Below are positions 16,583 to 37,226 of a stretch of DNA of 64,000 bases, in pieces. The notes beneath the pieces were generated by a model. That model was not told where the DNA came from, did no database searches, and worked only from the letters and a program-made list of their open reading frames with translations. The DNA is from Clostridia bacterium (lineage in GTDB: Bacteria; Bacillota; Clostridia; Oscillospirales; CAG-272). Location: assembly GCA_017416185.1 (NCBI GenBank), contig JAFQDF010000033.1, positions 1 through 64,000 of the forward strand. The letters run 5' to 3'. The stretch's first letter is position 1. Each line of letters begins with the position of its first letter. Both the position numbers and the translations under genes were made by a program.

Positions 16583-18430
16583 ATGATTTCAGATAAGATT
16601 TTAAAAAAAGTTTCAAAGCCCGGCAGATATATCGGCGGGGAATACGGACAGATATTAAAGGACAAAAAGGACATAAAGGCAAGGTGGGCATTCTGCTTTC
16701 CCGATACCTACGAGATAGGTATGAGCAATCTGGGTATGCGTATACTCTACGGCTCGCTTAACTCCTATCCCGATATATGGTGTGAAAGATGCTACACCCC
16801 TTGGGAGGATATGCAGAAGGAAATGAGAGAGAATAACATTCCTCTCTATGCTCTTGAAAGCGGCGATCCCCTTGGTGATTTTGATTTTGTGGCGTTTACT
16901 CTCCAGTATGAACTCTGCTATACAAACGTACTGACGATGCTTGATTTAGCGGGTATTCCCCTTATGTCAGCTGACAGAGGTGAGGAGCATCCCATCGTAA
17001 TCGGCGGCGGCCCCTGTGCTTACAACGCCGAGCCTGTGGCTGATTTCTTCGACATCTTCTCTATCGGAGAAGGCGAGGAGGCTCTGCCCGAGGTAACAAG
17101 GCTTTATATCGAGATGAAGGACACAGGCACATATACCCGTGAAGCCTTCCTTCACGAGGCGGCAAAGTTAGAGGGCTTCTACGTTCCTTCACTTTACACC
17201 GTAACATACAACGGGGACGGCAGTATTAAGGAATATACCCCCAAATACGACGACATCCCCGTAAAGATAAAAAAGAGAATAATCGAGGATATGGACAAGG
17301 CGTTTTTCCCCGACAAAGTGGTTATGCCCTATATCGAAACGGTACACGACCGCATAATGCTTGAGGTCTGCCGCGGCTGCTACAGAGGCTGCCGCTTCTG
17401 TCAGGCAGGAAATCTGTTCAGACCCGTGCGCCGCAAGAGCGTTGAGGTGTTAAATCAGCAGGCAAAGACCCTGTATGAAAACTGCGGCTATGACGAGATG
17501 TCCCTGACCTCTCTTTCTATATCCGACTATCCCTATCTTGAAGAGCTGTGCGACACACTTCTTTGCTGGACAGAGGATAAGAAGGTAAGTATGTCCTTGC
17601 CTTCGCTTCGTATAGATTCATTTTCAAAAGAGCTTATGGACCGTATTTCTTCGGTTCGCAGTTCAGGTCTTACCTTTGCTCCCGAGGCAGGTACACAGAG
17701 ACTTCGTGACGTTATAAATAAAGGTGTATGCGAGGAAGATCTGATGAACGCTGCAAAAATAGCCTTTGGCGGCGGCAAGAGTCTTGTGAAGCTCTACTTT
17801 ATGTTGGGACTTCCCACCGAGACAAACGAGGACCTTTGCGGCATAGCAACAATGGCAGAACACGTGCTTGACGCCTACTATCAAAACCCCGACCGCAAGA
17901 AGGGATCTAAGCCTCCGCAGGTGACCATAAGCGTAGCATCATTTATCCCCAAGCCCTTCACTCCCTTCCAGTGGGAGCCTCAGGATGACCTCGATACTCT
18001 GCTTGAAAAGCAGAAATATCTCGGCTCCAAGATAACCAACCGTAAGATAAAATACAACTGGCACGAAGCAAAGGTATCCCGACTTGAAGCGGTGTTTGCC
18101 CGCGGCGACAGAAAGCTGTCAAAGGCGATACTTGAAGCACATAAGCAGGGTATGATGTTCGACTCCTGGGATGAATACTTCAACTACGAAAAGTGGATGG
18201 AAATATTCAAATCAGTTGATATAGACCCCTCCTTCTATGCCAACCGCCGTTTTGGTGACGATGAAGTTCTCCCTTGGGATATCATCGACATCGGCGTGAC
18301 AAAATCCTTCCTCCTGCGTGAGAAGAAGGCGGCATATGAGGAAAGACCCACACCCAACTGTGTAGAAAAATGCTCAGGCTGCGGTGCCAATAAGCTGGGA
18401 GGTGAAAATTCGTGTTGTCCGAAAATATAA
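16583..18430 (+). CDS. Radical SAM protein (TIGR03960-like)
   Basis: About 615 residues. The radical SAM cluster motif CYRGCRFC (C-x3-C-x2-C) is near residue 263, preceded by a B12-binding-like N-terminal half (MSNLGMRILYGSLN, IGGGPCAYNAEPVADFFD). The C-terminus is cysteine-rich (CVEKCSGCG...CC). This matches the uncharacterised TIGR03960 family, nearly always encoded beside a TIGR03936/DUF2344 protein, as here. The ATG at 16583 follows TTAGGATT. The next gene overlaps its end. Substrate unknown. Confidence 0.82.
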   Translation: MISDKILKKVSKPGRYIGGEYGQILKDKKDIKARWAFCFPDTYEIGMSNLGMRILYGSLNSYPDIWCERCYTPWEDMQKEMRENNIPLYALESGDPLGDFDFVAFTLQYELCYTNVLTMLDLAGIPLMSADRGEEHPIVIGGGPCAYNAEPVADFFDIFSIGEGEEALPEVTRLYIEMKDTGTYTREAFLHEAAKLEGFYVPSLYTVTYNGDGSIKEYTPKYDDIPVKIKKRIIEDMDKAFFPDKVVMPYIETVHDRIMLEVCRGCYRGCRFCQAGNLFRPVRRKSVEVLNQQAKTLYENCGYDEMSLTSLSISDYPYLEELCDTLLCWTEDKKVSMSLPSLRIDSFSKELMDRISSVRSSGLTFAPEAGTQRLRDVINKGVCEEDLMNAAKIAFGGGKSLVKLYFMLGLPTETNEDLCGIATMAEHVLDAYYQNPDRKKGSKPPQVTISVASFIPKPFTPFQWEPQDDLDTLLEKQKYLGSKITNRKIKYNWHEAKVSRLEAVFARGDRKLSKAILEAHKQGMMFDSWDEYFNYEKWMEIFKSVDIDPSFYANRRFGDDEVLPWDIIDIGVTKSFLLREKKAAYEERPTPNCVEKCSGCGANKLGGENSCCPKI

Positions 18431-19101
18431 CGCAGCAAGTGCTGCACCCAAACTCGCACGAAGATAAGTGCGAACAAACCTCACGCAACATTGTTTTGCC
18501 TAAACCTGTACGAATCAAATTTGAAAAGATGAACGTCCTTAAATTCATCTCTCACCTTGACGTTACGCGTACAATGAAGACCGCTCTTACCCGTGCAGGC
18601 ATCCCCGTATGGTACACCGAAGGATTCAATCCCCATCCCAAGATGATATTCTCTCTGCCTCTGTCTATAGGCACCGAGAGCGTATGCGAGTATCTTGACA
18701 TCAAGATCACAGAGCCTATGTCCCACGAGGAGATAAAGAGCCGTCTGGGCGCGGCTCTCACCTCTGATATGGCTGTAACCGAGGTATATTCTCCCAAGAT
18801 GAAGTTTCAGGAGATAGCCTACGCCCTCTACGAGGTAACACCCTATGAGCCTTACGATCTTTCACCCCTTGATACCGAAAAGGTCATAGTGAAAAAGCAT
18901 TCCAAGAAGGGCGAGATAGAGATCGACCTTAAAGAGCGTATCAAGTCTATCGAGGTAAAGGACGGAAAAATTATGATCTTGGGTCGTGCCGACCAGCTCA
19001 ACTACCTTAACCCCGAGCAGGTTATGGCTCTGACAGGCTGTACGGATCATAGAATTATAAGAAAAGAAATATACAACGAAAGAATGCAGATCTTTCGATA
19101 A
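18412..19101 (+). CDS. Radical-SAM-associated protein (TIGR03936 / DUF2344)
   Basis: 229 residues. The family's opening VRIKFEKMNVLKFISHLDVTRT starts near residue 33, and GFNPHPKMIFSLPLSIG is also present. The GTG at 18412 follows GGGAGGTGAAAATTC and lies inside the end of the radical SAM gene, so the pair is translationally coupled. The 32 residues before the family core are unusual; a later start at KFEKM (Met40) would lack them. Function unknown; presumed partner of the upstream enzyme. Confidence 0.8.
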   Translation: MLSENITQQVLHPNSHEDKCEQTSRNIVLPKPVRIKFEKMNVLKFISHLDVTRTMKTALTRAGIPVWYTEGFNPHPKMIFSLPLSIGTESVCEYLDIKITEPMSHEEIKSRLGAALTSDMAVTEVYSPKMKFQEIAYALYEVTPYEPYDLSPLDTEKVIVKKHSKKGEIEIDLKERIKSIEVKDGKIMILGRADQLNYLNPEQVMALTGCTDHRIIRKEIYNERMQIFR

Positions 19102-19136: not shown

Positions 19137-19140
19137 AACC

Positions 19141-19239
19141 TTCACTATTCACTATTATCTATTCTCTATTCACTATTCACTTGTTATATAAAACCGATAG
19201 TTAGTGAATAGTGAATAATGAATAGTGAATAATGAATAA
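19141..19239. repeat. Inverted TGAATAR/TTCACTA strings before the ABC-F gene
   Basis: The left half (19141-19181) repeats TTCACTA/TTCTCTA and the right half (19202-19239) repeats TGAATAG/TGAATAA. The halves are roughly complementary, so the region can fold into a long imperfect stem around TTATATAAAACCGATAG. Confidence 0.7.
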
Positions 19240-19268
19240 CCGATAAACAGTTGAAAGGAATTATATAA

Positions 19269-20867
19269 ATGATATCAACAAACGATCTCTCACTTCAGTA
19301 CGGCGGAAGAACTCTGTTCAAAAATGCTAACCTTTCATTTACCCCCGGTAACTGCTACGGTATCATCGGAGCAAACGGCGCGGGTAAATCCACACTTTTA
19401 AAGATCCTCTCCGGCGAGATAGAATCCACCTCGGGCGAAGTATTCCGTGATCCCAAGGAACGTATGTCTGTACTCAAGCAGGACCACTTTATGTTTGACG
19501 AGCATACCGTTCTTAAGACCGTAATTCTCGGTAACACCGAGCTCTGCGACATTATGGACAAGAAGGAATACTACTACTCCAAGGAGGAAATGACCGAGGA
19601 GGAGGGTATGATCCTCTGTGACCTCGAGGAACGCTTTGCCGAGCTTGACGGCTGGACCGCAGAGTCGGATGCGGAAATTCTCTTAAACTCCCTCGGTATC
19701 ACAAGCGAGTATCACTATATGCTGATGTCTGAATGCCCTTCTGATATCAAGGTAAAGGTACTGCTTGCACAGGCACTTTTCGGCAACCCCGACATCCTTC
19801 TTATGGACGAGCCTACAAACCATCTTGACCTTGAGACCATCGCCTGGCTTGAGGACTTCCTTATAGACTTCCCCAACACGGTCATCGTCGTTTCCCACGA
19901 CCGTCACTTCTTAAATAAGATCTGTACACATATCGTTGACGTTGACTTCGGTAAGATAACCACAGTTGTAGGTAACTACGATTTCTGGTTTGAATACACC
20001 CAGATAAGACAGCGTCAGATCAAGGAACAGAACAAGAAGGCAGAGCAGAAGATCAAGGAGCTTCAGGAATTCATTTCCCGATTCTCCGCAAATGCAAGTA
20101 AGCATAAGCAGGCTACCAGCCGTAAGAAGCTGCTTGATAACATCTCTCTTGAGGCTGAGGAGGTTTCTTCAAGAAGATTCCCCTATATTGCCTTCAAGCC
20201 TACCCGTGAGATCGGTAACGAGGTTCTTACCGTTACTAATCTTTCAAAAACCATAGGTGACCGTAAGGTCCTTGACAACGTAAGCTTTATCATCCGTCCC
20301 GACGATAAGGTTGCATTTGTAGGAAGCGACCCTGTGGCAAGAACGACACTCTTCTCTATACTTGCAGGCGAGATGGAGCCTGACGAGGGCGAGATCAAGT
20401 GGGGCGTTACCACATCCCAGTCCTACTTCCCCACCGATAACTCAAAATACTTTGACGGCTGTGAGGACTCCCTTATCGACTGGGTAAGAAACTACAGCGA
20501 CCTTGTTTACGAGGCAGACGTGCGCGGCTGGCTCGGCAGACTTCTCTTCTCAGGTGATGAGGCAGCCAAGAGCGCAAAGGTGCTTTCGGGTGGTGAGAGA
20601 GTAAGATGTATGCTCTGTAAAATGATGCTTGAGGCGGCAAACGTGCTTATCCTTGACGAGCCCACCGACCACCTTGACCTTGAGTCTATTCAGGCTCTCA
20701 ACAAGGGGCTGACAGAGTTCACCGAAACAATCCTCTTCTGCTCCCACGACCATCAGTTCACCGAGACTATCGCAAACCGTATCATCGACGTAACTCCCGG
20801 TCACTTCTACGACAAGCAGACAAACTATGACTCATATGTTGCCGAAATAACAGGCAGACAGGACTAA
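19269..20867 (+). CDS. ABC-F family ATPase
   Basis: 532-residue soluble protein with two ABC domains and no membrane segment, typical of ribosome-associated ABC-F factors. Domain 1 has Walker A GANGAGKST near residue 36 and Walker B ILLMDEPTNHLDLE. Domain 2 has GSDPVARTT in the Walker A position (the usual lysine is absent), signature LSGGERVR and Walker B LILDEPTDHLDLE. The first domain's signature position reads SDIKVKVLLAQ rather than LSGGE. Those two departures suggest asymmetric ATP sites. Start follows GAAAGGAATTATATAA. Confidence 0.88.
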   Translation: MISTNDLSLQYGGRTLFKNANLSFTPGNCYGIIGANGAGKSTLLKILSGEIESTSGEVFRDPKERMSVLKQDHFMFDEHTVLKTVILGNTELCDIMDKKEYYYSKEEMTEEEGMILCDLEERFAELDGWTAESDAEILLNSLGITSEYHYMLMSECPSDIKVKVLLAQALFGNPDILLMDEPTNHLDLETIAWLEDFLIDFPNTVIVVSHDRHFLNKICTHIVDVDFGKITTVVGNYDFWFEYTQIRQRQIKEQNKKAEQKIKELQEFISRFSANASKHKQATSRKKLLDNISLEAEEVSSRRFPYIAFKPTREIGNEVLTVTNLSKTIGDRKVLDNVSFIIRPDDKVAFVGSDPVARTTLFSILAGEMEPDEGEIKWGVTTSQSYFPTDNSKYFDGCEDSLIDWVRNYSDLVYEADVRGWLGRLLFSGDEAAKSAKVLSGGERVRCMLCKMMLEAANVLILDEPTDHLDLESIQALNKGLTEFTETILFCSHDHQFTETIANRIIDVTPGHFYDKQTNYDSYVAEITGRQD

Positions 20868-28751: not shown

Positions 28752-29663
28752 TTATACCATTCTTGTAAGTTTTTTCATTTCTTTTGCAAGGCGCTCGTTT
28801 ATACCCTTGTAGGTGAAGCTGCCCTCGTTTGCAACGATCTGCTTGTTACCCATAACGAGACCTCTCTTTTCTATAGCAAGCTTGTAGCCTGCGGGGAAGG
28901 TAAGGCTGTCGCAGAGACGAAGTGCGGGAAGGTATGCTTTATTAAGCTTCTGGGCTTCCATAATTTCACCATTTTCAAAAAGCTCGAAGATCTTTGCATT
29001 GACCTCGGGAAGGATAGCGGACATAGCGGTCATAGAGCCGGTACAGCCTGCAACAAGAGAGGGCAGGAGCATATCGTCGGTTCCGCAGAATACCGCAAAG
29101 TCGGGTCTTATCTCGTCCTTGATATCTATAAGGTGGGATATACGCTTCAAATTTTGACTTGAATCCTTGATACCTATGATATTCTCACACTGGAGAAGTC
29201 TCTCGTAGGTGGATATAGCTATCTCCCCTGTAAACATAGGGATATTGTAGAGCATTATATTGATGCCCTCAAGTCTCTTTGAAAGTCTTACAAAGAACTC
29301 CTCCACCTCAAGCTGAGGAAGGGTAATATAGTAAGGCACGCACACAACTATGGTGTCACAGCCGCATTTCTCTGCGTGGCGGGCATACATCTCAACAGTA
29401 TCAAGATTGGTGGCACAGGCACCGGCAGCGATTCTCTTTCTGCCGTTATTCACCCTTGCACATACCTCGATAAGCTTCATATTTTCCTCGGGAGACATAT
29501 GCACGAACTCACCTGTGGTGGCACAGGGAAAAAGTCCGGTTATGGGGCTGCGGGCAAGAAACTCTACCTCTGCCTCATATGCTTCCCAGTCTATTGTGCC
29601 GTCATACTTAAAGGGGGTCATAAGAACGGCGTAGGGACCCTTGGGAATAAAGTATTTATCCAT
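28752..29663 (-). CDS. DHDPS/NAL-family aldolase or lyase
   Basis: 303-residue (beta/alpha)8 enzyme of the dihydrodipicolinate synthase/N-acetylneuraminate lyase superfamily. The Schiff-base Lys is in GIKDSS (residue 166), the Tyr in LYNIP (139), and the Thr pair in ATTGEF. Operon partners (acid-sugar dehydratase, alcohol dehydrogenase) suggest cleavage of a 2-keto-3-deoxy sugar acid to pyruvate plus an aldehyde, rather than lysine synthesis. The ATG at 29663 follows AAAGGATTAAAACA. The exact substrate cannot be told from sequence. Confidence 0.82.
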   Translation of the reverse strand: MDKYFIPKGPYAVLMTPFKYDGTIDWEAYEAEVEFLARSPITGLFPCATTGEFVHMSPEENMKLIEVCARVNNGRKRIAAGACATNLDTVEMYARHAEKCGCDTIVVCVPYYITLPQLEVEEFFVRLSKRLEGINIMLYNIPMFTGEIAISTYERLLQCENIIGIKDSSQNLKRISHLIDIKDEIRPDFAVFCGTDDMLLPSLVAGCTGSMTAMSAILPEVNAKIFELFENGEIMEAQKLNKAYLPALRLCDSLTFPAGYKLAIEKRGLVMGNKQIVANEGSFTYKGINERLAKEMKKLTRMV

Positions 29664-29680: not shown

Positions 29681-29922
29681 GAATGAATTGCGGCGTTGAC
29701 GCATGAATTGATGACAAGGTCATCATAAATTGATGCTAAAGCATCATGAATTGCATCTGAGATGCATTAAGGTAAGTTTTCGTCTTCAGACGAAAACTAT
29801 TTTAATTGAATTTGATTTTTGCTGAAGCAAAAATCTTCCTTAATGACAACGCAGTTGTCAATTCATGAAACTGTAGGTTTCAATTCATGGCGAAGCCAAT
29901 TCATGCCAAAGGCAATTCATTA
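29681..29922. repeat. Array of about ten small hairpins with ATGAATT/AATTCAT spacers
   Basis: Stems in order include GCG/CGC, GATGA/TCATC, GATGC/GCATC, GCATC/GATGC, GTTTTCGTCT/AGACGAAAAC, GATTTTTGC/GCAAAAATC, GACAAC/GTTGTC, GAAAC/GTTTC, GGC/GCC and GCC/GGC. The spacers read ATGAATT in the left half and its complement AATTCAT in the right half. The array fills the gap between two genes of one operon. Confidence 0.8.
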
Positions 29923-29923
29923 T

Positions 29924-31051
29924 TTATATTTTAACGGTATATCTCTGTGCAACCTCTTCGTCTATCTCAACACCGAGACCGGGGATATCGGGAATATTTA
30001 CGTAGCCCTCGGAGTCTATCTGGAAGTGATGCTTAACAAGGTTCTTTGAAAGCACGGTCTCCTGACTGCAATATTCAAGGAAGGGAGAGTTGGGAGTAGC
30101 TGCGATAAGCTGGAGGGATGCGGACATAAGTATACCTGTTTTGAAGGCGTGGGGGATCATAGGGATACCCTTGAGCATAGCCATATCCATAACCTTCTTG
30201 GCAACGGTGATACCGCCGCAACGGCTCATATCGGGCTGGATGATATCAATGTTACAGCCGTTGATAAGCTCGTTGAACTCGTACATCGTACCAAGCTCCT
30301 CACCCGCGGAGATGTTTACGCAGGATACGTCCTGTGTCAGTCTCTTATAGAACTCGACCGCATCGGGAAGGAAGGGCTCCTCTACCCAATGAACGTCATA
30401 TTCGCTGAACTTGTTACAGAGTCTTACCGCCTGCTTGTACTCGGTCCATCTCATACCGATATCTATCATCAGCTTTGCTTTGTCGCCCATATGCTTACGG
30501 CAGAGGCGGACAAGCTCAAGGTCACGGTCGTCGTCGCGGCCCAGCGCTCCCCAGCCCCATTTGATTCCCGTGAAGCCCATAGGGAGATAAGTCTCGCATA
30601 TTCTTGCTATTTCTTCTTCTGTTTCGGGCATAAGAACGGAGCAATACGCCTTGATCTTGTTACGGAAGGAGCCGCCAATAAGCTTGTGTACAGGCTTACC
30701 GAGAGCCTTACCGATAATATCCCAGATAGCAATATCTATACCCGACATTGCGTGGATAGCGGCAGAACGTCTGCCGTAATAGTAGCTGTAGTTATACATC
30801 TTCTGCCAGATCACCCCTACGTCAAAGGGATCCATACCGATAACTGCGTCACGAAGGCCTCTGCATACCTCGTGGGATGCAGGGGACTCAACTATAGCCT
30901 TTACGATATAGGGAGATGAGTCTACCTCGCCTATACCCTGAATGCCTGTGTCTGTGGTAACTCTTACAACGGCGGTATCCTGACTGCCGTCGCCTATCAT
31001 CTTAATTTCGGGCTGCTTAACAACCAATACTTCTACATCTGTAATAATCAT
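29924..31051 (-). CDS. Enolase-superfamily acid-sugar dehydratase (mandelate racemase subgroup)
   Basis: 375 residues. The N-terminal capping domain is followed by the barrel with metal ligands Asp (MIDIGMRW), Glu (VEEPF) and Glu (SAGEEL). The catalytic base strand has GIKWGWG, and an Asp-His pair (IIQPDMSRCGG, IPHAFKTG) follows. This residue set marks the mandelate racemase subgroup, whose members dehydrate acid sugars to 2-keto-3-deoxy acids. Its start overlaps the stop of the dehydrogenase gene (ATGA). Specificity is unknown. Confidence 0.82.
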   Translation of the reverse strand: MIITDVEVLVVKQPEIKMIGDGSQDTAVVRVTTDTGIQGIGEVDSSPYIVKAIVESPASHEVCRGLRDAVIGMDPFDVGVIWQKMYNYSYYYGRRSAAIHAMSGIDIAIWDIIGKALGKPVHKLIGGSFRNKIKAYCSVLMPETEEEIARICETYLPMGFTGIKWGWGALGRDDDRDLELVRLCRKHMGDKAKLMIDIGMRWTEYKQAVRLCNKFSEYDVHWVEEPFLPDAVEFYKRLTQDVSCVNISAGEELGTMYEFNELINGCNIDIIQPDMSRCGGITVAKKVMDMAMLKGIPMIPHAFKTGILMSASLQLIAATPNSPFLEYCSQETVLSKNLVKHHFQIDSEGYVNIPDIPGLGVEIDEEVAQRYTVKI

Positions 31052-32274: not shown

Positions 32275-34749
32275 ATGAAAAAATTAGCAATATTTCTGAT
32301 ATGCCTTATAATTTCGCTTACATCCTGCAGTTCAGGCAGTGTGTTTACCCCTTCGGAGAAAGTAACTCTCACGGGAACGGAGGGTAAGGCGGATTTTATA
32401 ATAGTACACCGCGAGGATGCCCATCAGGATATCGAGGACGCTCTTTCTGCATTCTGTAAGACCCTTCGCGAAAAGGAAGAGCTTGACCGCATCGAAATAC
32501 ACAACGACAGCCGTCGTGAAAACCCCGACGTGGTTGAAATTCTTGTAGGCGACACCAACCGTTCGGCTTCACAGACTGCAATCAAAGACCTGCGCGACCG
32601 CGAGTTTACCGTAGGTGTATACGAGGGTAAGTTCGTTATCGCAGGCGGTGACGAGGAGGCAACGGTAGACGCCATAAACCATCTGTATATGCACTATGAT
32701 GAGTTTATAGTTGACGGCGAGATATCCTCTGAAAACAACTATACTCTTAAATACGATTATAAATATGATAACATCAAGGTAGGTAATACCGATATTTCCG
32801 CATATACCGTGGTTTATCCCGACCCGGGCGGAGTTTATGCCGAAAAGGAAAGTGCGGAGAAATATGCTGCACATAGACTTGCTGAACAGATAAGTCAGTT
32901 AAGCGGAATTATTGTACCCTGTGAAAATATCAAGAACACCGAAGCTGAATATCAGATAGTTATAGAAAAGGGAAAGGGAGAATATGCCTACAGCATAAAG
33001 ACAGAAGGCAAAAAAATCACGATTACCGCCGACGGTATTTACGCCTTTACAAAAGCTTATGATGTCATGCTTGAAAATAAAAATATTCCCGCTGATTTTT
33101 CAGCTAAGGGAAGTGATCTCTTAAAGGGAAATAAAAAGGATAATTTCGTTTACGTATCCTACACCGAGGACACCGTATTCGGTGACAACCCCGTAAAATC
33201 AATCAAAATAGGTGACGTTGATATTACCGAATACCGTATAATCCATCACGATTACGGCAAGGGATATTCGGGGTACGGAATGAACGAGATATATGCCGCA
33301 CAGCAGCTTCAGAAATATCTGAAATATGCACTCGGTGTAGAATTATCTCTCGATACTGACTCCTCCGAGCCTACAGAGTACGAGATACTTATAGGTAATA
33401 CCGACCGCACAAAGGAAGACACGTCTTCCTACGGAATTGAGGAGTACATAATCAAAACCGAGGATAAGAATCTCATTATTACAGGCGGTGAGCAGAGAGG
33501 TACCATATACGGAGTATACTCCTTCCTTGAGGACTATATAGGCTGCCGCTTCTTCACAGAGGACTGCGAGATAATCTATAAGACTGACGAAATTATCGTA
33601 CCCGGGGATATAAACGTCCGTTTCGCTCCTGTTCTCGAATACCGCGATACCAACGAAAAGGCTTATCAGAATGCAGAAATAGCCTCCAAACGTAAAGTAA
33701 ACTCAAGCTATACCCGTGCAATGAGCTATTTTCAGGGTTCCAGTATCGACTTTGCAGGCGGTGCCTTTGTCCATACTATGGACACGGTATACGATCTTGC
33801 CCCTCAGAGCTCTCAGCCCTGCTTCTCAAGTGAGGAGACCTATCAGACGGTCCTTGAAAAAGCGAGAAAAATTCTTAAAGCAAGCCCTAACGCAGAGCTT
33901 ATCTCGGTAACCCAGAACGACAACAACAACTCCTGCACATGTCAGGAGTGTACACTGGTATATAAAGAGGAGGACAGCCGTGCGGCACCTCTTATCCGCT
34001 TTGTCAACAGACTTGCCGAGGAACTGGAGGATGAATATCCCAACGTAAAGATACAGACCCTTGCCTATATGTTTTCAAGCCAGGCTCCCACCAAGACCAA
34101 GCCCCACAAAAACGTGGTCATAGAGCTCTGCTCTCTTGATGCCTGCTGTGGACATCCTCTGTGCGATCTTTCCTGTCCCACCAACGCGGAGTTCAGAGGT
34201 CAGATAGCCGACTGGAGCGTTCTTACCGACAATCTCTACGTATGGTATTACGTTGTGGAATTTACAGGTAACGCAAAGAGCGCACCCTTTATGAACTTCG
34301 ATTCTCTCTACGATACCTATACCCTATTCCACCAAAACGGCGTCAAGGGTGTGTTCAACGAAGCAAATATGAATGAGGAAAGCCTTGAGTTCGGTGCTCT
34401 GCGCTCATATCTTATCTCCAAGCTTATGTGGGATCGTGATATGACAAGAGAAGAATTTGATACGGCAATTCATGAGTTTATCGTAGCATATTACGGTGAG
34501 GCATCTGATATAGTAGAGGAATATTTCTATATGATGTCTGCCTTTGCCCACGACCGTCACTTCGAGCAGTATGCGGGAGTAGCGGGAATTTTGGATATGA
34601 ACCGATTAAAGGATGTAATGAGCGAGCTTACAGAGTGGATGGATGCTCTTACAGGCTTTGATTACACAAGAACCGAAACCGAGGCTCACGTCAACCGTCT
34701 GAGAAAAGGATATTCTCAGCTCAGAAGCTTTGCAGCTAATTTGAAATAA
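32275..34749 (+). CDS. DUF4838 lipoprotein, glycoside-hydrolase-like (copy 1)
   Basis: 824 residues. The lipobox SLTSC gives a lipid-anchored protein. Two alpha-glucuronidase-type N-terminal-like domains (about 40-150 and 330-450, each with an EILVGDTNRS / EILIGNTDRT strand) precede a barrel region typical of DUF4838, with NDNNNSCTCQECTLVYKEED and ALRSYLISKLMWD. DUF4838 proteins are predicted glycan-degrading or glycan-binding enzymes related to GH20/GH67 folds; activity is unproven. A close paralogue follows 8 nt downstream. Confidence 0.75.
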   Translation: MKKLAIFLICLIISLTSCSSGSVFTPSEKVTLTGTEGKADFIIVHREDAHQDIEDALSAFCKTLREKEELDRIEIHNDSRRENPDVVEILVGDTNRSASQTAIKDLRDREFTVGVYEGKFVIAGGDEEATVDAINHLYMHYDEFIVDGEISSENNYTLKYDYKYDNIKVGNTDISAYTVVYPDPGGVYAEKESAEKYAAHRLAEQISQLSGIIVPCENIKNTEAEYQIVIEKGKGEYAYSIKTEGKKITITADGIYAFTKAYDVMLENKNIPADFSAKGSDLLKGNKKDNFVYVSYTEDTVFGDNPVKSIKIGDVDITEYRIIHHDYGKGYSGYGMNEIYAAQQLQKYLKYALGVELSLDTDSSEPTEYEILIGNTDRTKEDTSSYGIEEYIIKTEDKNLIITGGEQRGTIYGVYSFLEDYIGCRFFTEDCEIIYKTDEIIVPGDINVRFAPVLEYRDTNEKAYQNAEIASKRKVNSSYTRAMSYFQGSSIDFAGGAFVHTMDTVYDLAPQSSQPCFSSEETYQTVLEKARKILKASPNAELISVTQNDNNNSCTCQECTLVYKEEDSRAAPLIRFVNRLAEELEDEYPNVKIQTLAYMFSSQAPTKTKPHKNVVIELCSLDACCGHPLCDLSCPTNAEFRGQIADWSVLTDNLYVWYYVVEFTGNAKSAPFMNFDSLYDTYTLFHQNGVKGVFNEANMNEESLEFGALRSYLISKLMWDRDMTREEFDTAIHEFIVAYYGEASDIVEEYFYMMSAFAHDRHFEQYAGVAGILDMNRLKDVMSELTEWMDALTGFDYTRTETEAHVNRLRKGYSQLRSFAANLK

Positions 34750-34757
34750 CAGAAATT

Positions 34758-37226
34758 ATGTTTAAAAAAATATTTATAGTTTTATTATGTTTTATAATGT
34801 TGCTCACCGCCTGTAAGAACGGTGATAAGAGCGAAGAACCGATACAAAGGGTGAGACTGGATGCGACCGAGGGTAAAGCAGATTTTGTCTTTGTTTATCC
34901 CGAGGGCAGCGACCAGAGTATAGAGGATGCACTCAACTCATTATGCAAGGTTTTCCGTAATAAAATGAACCTTGACCGTATTACCGTCTGCGACGATACA
35001 AAAAAGGAAAACTCCGAGGTTACCGAAATACTTATAGGCAATACCAACCGCAGTACCTCTCAAAGAGTTGTAAGCGGACTTCGTGACCGCGAGTTCACCG
35101 TGGGTGTTTACGAAGAAAAATTCGTTGTTGCAGGCGGCGACGAGGAGGCTACCCTTGATGCAATTAATTACCTGTATATGCACTATGATGAATTCGTCGC
35201 GGAAGGTATTGTTTCCTCGGAAAAAAATTACCTTCTCAAATATGATTATAGGTATGACAACATAAAGATCGGGAAAACCGATATATCTGCTTATACCATC
35301 GTATATCCCGATCCCGGCGGCACTTATTCCGAAAAGGAATCCTGCGAAAAATATGCAGCCCGCAGACTCTCTGAACAGATAAGTCAGTATAGTGGCATCA
35401 TCCTCCCCTGTGAAAACGAAATAAGCACGGATGCGGAATATAAACTGATTCTTAAAAAAAACGATAAAAAGAATTCCTACAGTATAAAAACAGAGGGCAA
35501 AAATATCATAATTTCGGCAGATACGGTCTATTCCTTTACAAAGGCGTTCGATACCCTGCTTGAAAACGAAAATATCCCCGATGATTTTTCGGCTGAGGGA
35601 AAAGATCTTCTCAAGGAAAGCAAGCAGAACAATTTTGTTTACGTTTCCTACGGAGAGGACAAGGTTCACGGTGACAGCCCCGTAAAATCGGTAAAGGTCG
35701 GGGACGCAGATATCACAAAATACCGTATAATCCATCACGATTACGGCAAGGGATATTCGGGCTACGGAATGAACGAGATATACGCCGCACAGCAGCTTCA
35801 GAGATATCTGAAATATGCGCTCGGTGTAGAATTATCTCTCGATACTGACTCCTCCGAGCCTACAGAGTTCGAGATACTTATAGGTAATACCGACCGCACA
35901 AAGGAGGATACGTCTTCCTACGGAATTGAGGAATATATTATCAAGACCGAGGGAAAAAACCTCATCATCACAGGCGGTGAACAGAGAGGTACCATATACG
36001 GTGTATACTCCTTCCTTGAGGACTATATCGGATGCAGATTTTTTGCTGAGGACTGCGAGGTAATCTACAAAGCGGATGAAATAGTTATCCCTGCCGATAT
36101 AAACGTTCGCTTCAAGCCAAATCTTGAGTACCGAGATATTGACGAATACATCTACCGCAACGGAGAGGGCGGTTCAAAACGCAAGATCAACTCCAGCTTC
36201 GGCAGAGCAATGAGCTATTTTCAGGGCTCAAGCATCGACTTTGCGGGCGGGGCGTTCGTACATACTATGGATACGGTATACGATTTGGGCACTCAAAGCA
36301 CACAGCCCTGTTTTTCAAGTGAAGAGAATTATCAGAAGGTACTTGAAAAATCAAGAAGAATACTCAAGGCCAACCCCAACGCAGAGATAATCTCGATAAC
36401 CCAGAACGACAACAACAACTACTGCACCTGTAAGGATTGCTCCCTTGTTTATAAGGAGGAGGAAAGCCACGCCGCTCCCCTTATCAGATTTGTCAACCGT
36501 CTGGCGGAGGAGTTGTCTGACGAATATCCCGATATTCAGATAGAAACATTGGCATATATGTTCTCCACCGAGGTGCCTAAGATCACAAAACCTCACGAGA
36601 ACGTTATTATCCAGCTCTGTTCTCTTGATATGTGTTGCGCCCACGCCCTGAGCGACTTAAGCTGTACCGACAACCGGCGGTTCCGTGACCAGATAGAAGA
36701 GTGGAGCGCCATCACCGACAATCTCTACATATGGTATTATGCAGTTGAGTTCACGGGCAATGCAAGAAACGCACCCTTTATGAACTTTGACGCTCTCTAC
36801 GATACCTACGCTCTGTTTATGCAGAACAACGTAAAAGGCATCTTCAATCAAGCGTATACCAACCAGGAAAGCGCGGAGTTTGGTGCGCTGAGAGGATATC
36901 TGCTGTCAAAGATGATGTGGGATACCGATATAACAAGAGAGGAATTAGACCTTGCCGTAAAGGAGTTTATCGCGGCGTACTACGGTGAAGCACAGGATAT
37001 TATAGAAGAATATTTCTATATGATGCGTGACCTCGGTGCTGACAAGCATTTCACACAGTATGCGGCTCTGAGCGGTGTACTTGACCTTAACAGATTTAAT
37101 GTTATGTCAGAGGAGCTGTCAAATTGGATGGACACGCTCTCAAGCTTTGACTACGAAAGAACAGAAACTAAAGATCATGTCAACAGACTCAGAAAAGGGT
37201 TTGGGGATATGAAGAAATATGCTTAA
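34758..37226 (+). CDS. DUF4838 lipoprotein, glycoside-hydrolase-like (copy 2)
   Basis: 822 residues, with the same architecture as copy 1 throughout: lipobox LLTAC, repeated NTNRS / NTDRT domains, CTCKDCSLVYKEEE and ALRGYLLSKMMWD. DNA identity is very high at 35721-35930 but lower around it, suggesting gene conversion. The ATG at 34758 has no clear ribosome site, so it may rely on coupling to copy 1. Probably a partner enzyme for a related glycan. Confidence 0.75.
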   Translation: MFKKIFIVLLCFIMLLTACKNGDKSEEPIQRVRLDATEGKADFVFVYPEGSDQSIEDALNSLCKVFRNKMNLDRITVCDDTKKENSEVTEILIGNTNRSTSQRVVSGLRDREFTVGVYEEKFVVAGGDEEATLDAINYLYMHYDEFVAEGIVSSEKNYLLKYDYRYDNIKIGKTDISAYTIVYPDPGGTYSEKESCEKYAARRLSEQISQYSGIILPCENEISTDAEYKLILKKNDKKNSYSIKTEGKNIIISADTVYSFTKAFDTLLENENIPDDFSAEGKDLLKESKQNNFVYVSYGEDKVHGDSPVKSVKVGDADITKYRIIHHDYGKGYSGYGMNEIYAAQQLQRYLKYALGVELSLDTDSSEPTEFEILIGNTDRTKEDTSSYGIEEYIIKTEGKNLIITGGEQRGTIYGVYSFLEDYIGCRFFAEDCEVIYKADEIVIPADINVRFKPNLEYRDIDEYIYRNGEGGSKRKINSSFGRAMSYFQGSSIDFAGGAFVHTMDTVYDLGTQSTQPCFSSEENYQKVLEKSRRILKANPNAEIISITQNDNNNYCTCKDCSLVYKEEESHAAPLIRFVNRLAEELSDEYPDIQIETLAYMFSTEVPKITKPHENVIIQLCSLDMCCAHALSDLSCTDNRRFRDQIEEWSAITDNLYIWYYAVEFTGNARNAPFMNFDALYDTYALFMQNNVKGIFNQAYTNQESAEFGALRGYLLSKMMWDTDITREELDLAVKEFIAAYYGEAQDIIEEYFYMMRDLGADKHFTQYAALSGVLDLNRFNVMSEELSNWMDTLSSFDYERTETKDHVNRLRKGFGDMKKYA

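Follow-up and report, generated by a model that had tools for sequence, protein, structure and literature searches.

Between two genes of an operon in the 64,000-nucleotide window analysed here (positions 1 to 64,000 of contig JAFQDF010000033.1 of a Clostridia bacterium) lies a 242-bp mirrored ladder, at 29681-29922, that contains no ORF and in which short hairpins alternate with spacers of seven nucleotides. What this ladder is, and how it came to lie there, is the question raised by the locus. The reading favoured here, at a probability of roughly 0.7, is that of a non-autonomous mobile element served by proteins of the PF05635 family. As the initial annotation had placed it, the element lies between a dehydratase and an aldolase gene, both of which are on the minus strand: upstream in the operon is an enolase-superfamily (MR_MLE) dehydratase gene (29924-31051), whose stop codon lies a few bases from the element, and downstream is a DHDPS-family aldolase gene (28752-29663), whose start codon, set by comparison with orthologues at empty sites, lies about 17 bp from it. 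Orientation was scored from arm type, as the AT-rich core is ambiguous in this respect, and the canonical orientation of the element is that of the plus strand of the window, antisense to the operon.

Read from the sequence on the plus strand, the element has eight hairpin modules, four with spacers of the ATGAATT type and four with mirrored AATTCAT spacers, on either side of a core with two hairpins, and so bears out the earlier description of ten hairpins with a spacer that flips past the centre. In the left arm, ATGAATT (29683-29689, 29703-29709 and 29746-29752) and ATAAATT (29725-29731) alternate with hairpins h1 (29690-29702), h2 (29710-29724) and h3 (29732-29745), in a layout common to 16 other copies, and lead to h4 (GCATC-TGA-GATGC, 29753-29765). 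The core (29766-29844) has a closing stem formed by ATTAAGG (29766-29772) and CCTTAAT (29838-29844), an AT-rich middle, and two longer hairpins at 29775-29798 and 29814-29835. On its other side, h5 (GACAAC-GCA-GTTGTC, 29845-29859) is followed by the right arm (29860-29920), where four AATTCAT spacers (29860-29866, 29882-29888, 29898-29904 and 29914-29920) alternate with h6 (29867-29881), h7 (29889-29897) and h8 (29905-29913). The hairpins, described earlier as perfect, are not all so, since h1 has a mismatch and h6 a T-G pair, and the use of one spacer throughout holds for the outer modules, not for the core with its ATTAAGG/CCTTAAT closure or for the single ATAAATT spacer.

The left spacers are complementary to the right ones, so that the arms could pair into a ladder of stacked junctions. 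The predicted fold of about -89 kcal/mol is far better than that of shuffled sequences (z of -9.8 for the minus strand and -7.7 for the plus strand). At gathering score, a scan of the window against Rfam gave no match, and a hit of MIR7504 to the element at E 0.34 was set aside as a chance match to a palindrome.

Dispersal of this architecture is demonstrated within the host genome itself (G000; 2.55 Mb in 45 contigs, with all copy counts being minima), where at least 17 scattered copies of the window type are found. The initial annotation had proposed a genome-wide search for ATGAATT-hairpin units and named a lack of other arrays in the genome or its relatives among the findings that would count against it; such arrays are abundant, with 37+44 (81) matches to ATGAATT-N(7-25)-ATGAATT in the host genome and 0+0 for the reversed pattern as a control. 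At the window locus, the junction is empty in the congeners G003 and G001, while in G004 it holds a different ORF-less element with TGCAGAA heptamers around a similar core, and for about 11 of the 16 other host copies one or more congeners show a clean empty site. Because clean empty sites exist in congeners here and at most other loci, the array is an insertion. Comparison of host copies with empty sites revealed no constant direct target-site duplication, and by arm type the copies stand in both orientations relative to their operons. Co-directional ORFs apparently flank all 17, with the ORFs on both sides identified for 15, whereas 76% of gene pairs are co-directional in the background (p ~0.01-0.02). 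Among the 94 modules parsed in the 17 copies, 77 are perfect and 81 have a C-G closing pair; the commonest loop sequences are TTC and TTT on the left side and GAA on the right. Stem sequences differ, as first noticed, with 44 distinct 5' arms among the 94. In a younger family, two near-identical ladders with the same hairpins occur at unrelated loci (L272 and L274 of G031), as expected of recent dispersal.

Comparison of G000 with G004 shows how the arms change. Most orthologous elements are nearly identical, and the exceptions demonstrate module swapping: at C18 and C34c one arm is largely unchanged and the other differs throughout, at C33 and C4 the orthologues differ by whole spacer-hairpin units, and at C19b a near-identical core at the same site carries ATGAATT spacers in one species and GTGAAAT spacers in the other, and every hairpin is different. 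Single-base changes in stems are few among the orthologues and go uncompensated. Together, these observations suggest that stems are swapped in whole modules and do not drift with compensation. With its copies, its empty sites and its swapped or lost spacer-hairpin modules, the family thus supports the earlier suggestion of a repeat-copying process, in the form of a mobile dispersed family. Within one genome, the spacers of a family vary little, which suggests a recogniser acting in trans.

These observations also bear on the view that the ladder is a structured RNA owned by the host, which selection maintains for its part in stabilising, processing or regulating the mRNA, with dispersal being secondary. 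Such a role would suit the very stable fold, the position of all 17 copies between co-directional genes (p ~0.01) and the near-constancy of several orthologues between G000 and G004, but close congeners retain the operon with an empty site, copies occur in both orientations, different element families occupy one junction, and point changes in stems go without compensation, all of which makes this explanation unlikely. A structured RNA that would slow decay, as proposed in the initial annotation, has the strong fold in its favour, but the two orientations and the uncompensated stem changes give no sign of selection for one particular RNA.

The key link, overlooked by the initial annotation, is the presence of a PF05635 gene inside or beside ladders. 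PF05635 is the 23S rRNA intervening-sequence protein (IVP), a four-helix bundle. The host genome has nine PF05635 matches, and 37 of 59 genomes have at least one. An ORF-bearing member of the family is demonstrated in the same genome: in copy C36, a PF05635 ORF occupies the core loop between the two core hairpins, and this element has an orthologue in G004 and an empty site in G003. The window copy lacks such an ORF, both within the array and next to it, and is therefore filed, as a relative of C36, as an ORF-less derivative rather than an autonomous member. Given a single ORF-bearing copy against many ORF-less ones, the ORF could be a passenger. The ORF lies inside the ladder in C36 and L088, and in a second layout the complete ladder stands just upstream of it (e.g., L103, L105-L111, L114, L115, L121 and L126). 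Many ladders stand entirely upstream of the ORF, which is why mirrored ends were recovered at only 15 of 51 loci when its two flanks were compared by simple local alignment. Mirrored 6-mers flank 115 of 137 PF05635 loci, compared to 6 of 65 distal control windows, and upstream of such loci there are 4.07 hairpins per 300 bp, compared to 1.11 in controls. An excess of G-T over A-C pairs upstream of IVP genes (51 vs 19), at one time taken for selection at the RNA level, is mostly due to tRNA terminators and was withdrawn.

Linkage of IVP to mirrored arrays is demonstrated in several phyla. On plasmids of Cyanobacteriota, Spirochaetota, Bacteroidota, Chloroflexota and another Clostridia species, as well as on viral contigs, PF05635 genes have short mirrored repeats on both sides, for the most part arranged in tandem. 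The period of these tandem runs is exactly 7 in 30 of 30 cases, with one run found in the control. Since the clostridial spacers are likewise 7 nt long, what is general is the combination of a PF05635 gene and mirrored heptamer arrays, of which the window element is the hairpin-decorated, ORF-less form. On plasmids (L284, L285 and L287), PF05635 genes with heptamer arrays lie inside restriction-modification or helicase operons (HsdS/HsdR, helicase/N-6 DNA methylase). PF05635 had been noted earlier in cas loci (PMC3936711).

The protein family also provides the nearest precedent. In the intervening sequences (IVSs) of 23S rRNA, the S23/IVP protein is encoded in the loop of a mirrored stem, and the mobility of IVS elements with this ORF was already suspected (PMC4990558; PMC11270868). 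Ladders share the protein family and the ORF within the loop of a mirrored stem. Unlike IVSs, however, they lie between protein genes or after tRNA terminators (the window copy is not in a 23S rRNA gene), their arms consist of multiple heptamer/hairpin modules, and the majority of copies carry no ORF. Simple heptameric repeats found in bacteria, such as GGGAATC and TAACTGA, which are intergenic, partly in inverted pairs and of unexplained origin (PMC4692102; PMC4679880), have 7-nt units as ladders do; these papers make no mention of PF05635, and the link drawn here extends only to arrays beside PF05635 genes.

A further connection is to Gut-1 (Rfam RF01706), which was reported from gut metagenomes alone and described as noncoding (Weinberg et al., 2010; PMC2864571). 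In its consensus, spacers of the UGAAAU type alternate with hairpins, making it one arm of the GTGAAAT ladder, so that what was described as a free RNA is here an arm of a mirrored element. Among the 55 IVP loci scanned, 22 have a Gut-1 match at gathering score, as do three elements of G003 that have no ORF (L246, L253 and L255), of which L246 occupies a site filled in the host genome by an ATGAATT copy. The window element, with its ATGAATT spacers, has no match to RF01706 even at E<=1. Across 59 genomes, the number of Gut-1 hits follows that of PF05635 (Spearman 0.78, p 2e-13, uncorrected for phylogeny), and all 14 genomes with at least 20 Gut-1 hits have PF05635. The same class of element appears to account for the orphan family Gut-1 and for some of the bacterial 7-base repeat arrays that have lacked an explanation.

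Insertion at terminator hairpins and at gene ends is demonstrated by the positions of the ladders. By hand count, about 35 of 60 PF05635 loci have a tRNA gene ~120-570 bp upstream, in every case on the same strand. The ladder often begins directly after a terminator hairpin, often that of a tRNA, and in many Clostridia it lies between the terminator and the IVP gene. A perfect hairpin with a stem of at least 7 adjoins 37 of 198 ladder starts compared to 41 of 4760 random positions, an excess for which natural terminators account in part. In several gene-end insertions (L246, L248, L251, L254, L255 and the host copies C13 and C19b), the 5' arm is the coding end of a host gene with its stop codon and the 3' arm is an inverted copy of it, directly adjoining the first spacer; where empty orthologues were checked, for C13 and C19b, this inverted copy is absent. 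The inverted gene ends are a hint of fold-back copying at insertion, not proof of it. At L255 and L085, an identical terminator hairpin flanks the element on both sides, as would result from duplication of the target hairpin during insertion. In independent species (L106, L108-L111, L075 and L278), an ATGAATT ladder with a PF05635 gene recurs where an rlmD-like methyltransferase gene has its 3' end, with the stop codon within the first spacer (CGA CAA TGA ATT). Group IIC introns insert strand-specifically just downstream of terminator hairpins and carry an ORF in a structured RNA. Ladder elements resemble them in both respects, but have neither an Rfam ribozyme match nor an ORF for a reverse transcriptase (RT).

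The modelled structure of IVP (pLDDT 92) has the S23/Avd four-helix fold and matches 2RLD (TM 0.87), 2GSC (TM 0.86) and Avd itself (4DWL, TM 0.79/0.86), in addition to chains 8UBE/8UB7 of a DGR ribonucleoprotein, with the E-values for Avd being weak (0.02-0.09). Avd, the accessory protein of DGRs, works with a hairpin target of free stem sequence and fixed loop (PMC3240598; Avd also in PMC10053308), and the hairpins of the ladder, with free stems and conserved loops, form a suggestive parallel to this target. Unlike DGRs, the loci read have no pair of template and variable repeats, and RT is not needed in ladder-rich genomes. An element dependent on RT, in which IVP acts like Avd together with an RT in trans and copies ladder RNA beside target hairpins, would draw on the shared fold, the likeness of DGR target hairpins to ladder modules (PMC3240598) and the resemblance of terminator-adjacent, strand-specific insertion to that of group IIC introns. 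It is nevertheless an improbable explanation, as G001-G005 carry IVP and ladders without an RVT_1 match and RT number does not track ladder number (rho -0.10), although the 80-97% completeness of the draft genomes limits this argument.

Like MITEs and REPINs, the ladders are short, mirrored, non-autonomous, intergenic and dispersed; unlike them, their candidate helper is a four-helix bundle and their ends are multi-unit arrays with exchangeable hairpins, and no transposase with the same ends, the criterion for a MITE, was found among the loci read. Mobilisation of REP/REPIN-like repeats in trans by a Y1 transposase (RAYT or IS200/IS605) that recognises hairpins and adjacent guide bases would fit the mirrored, dispersed, intergenic pairs of hairpins with conserved flanking bases but is very improbable, given that the host genome holds just a 62-aa Y1 remnant, that the ladder-rich genomes G003, G018, G034, G038, G046 and G058 have zero Y1 matches (RT is likewise absent), and that ladders are tracked by PF05635 rather than by Y1, as judged for Y1 by inspection.

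For the non-autonomous mobile element served by PF05635 proteins, the following mechanism may be proposed. The element would consist of mirrored arrays of a 7-nt recognition unit, followed here at each unit by a short hairpin of free sequence, and autonomous or helper members would encode the PF05635 four-helix bundle. Acting in trans, this protein may bind heptamer-hairpin modules in the form of DNA or RNA and, together with host enzymes, could drive copying next to hairpins, while folding of the ladder in mRNA would make insertion between the genes of an operon tolerable. No catalytic site is known for IVP, and the analysis turned up no enzyme that would mobilise the ladders. A broader proposition, held tentatively at slightly less than even odds, is that PF05635 marks an undescribed mobile class that spans phyla, moves without a recognised transposase or RT, ends in mirrored heptamer arrays (in Clostridia with every heptamer followed by a hairpin), gains new hairpins through fold-back copying of the 3' end of the target itself, and would account for Gut-1 and for much of the unexplained heptameric repeats. 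In open-access text, no connection of PF05635 with heptamer arrays, Gut-1 or terminator-adjacent ladders was found. The reading gives testable identities to three orphans, namely PF05635 proteins outside rRNA, Gut-1 RNA and, at least in part, the heptameric repeats over-represented in bacteria, and it offers a candidate mobile element whose sole gene encodes an Avd-fold four-helix bundle and whose mobility chemistry is directly testable.

The window contains a second ORF-less mirrored element at 19140-19243, of the ACTATTC heptamer type and without hairpins, which, like the ladder, lies between a pair of co-directional ORFs (18412-19101 and 19269-20867). Heptamers of this family also flank a PF05635 gene elsewhere in the host genome (C43:9461 of G000). 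At 32275-37226, two neighbouring, paralogous large lipoprotein-like ORFs of 824 and 822 aa resemble a tandem duplication.
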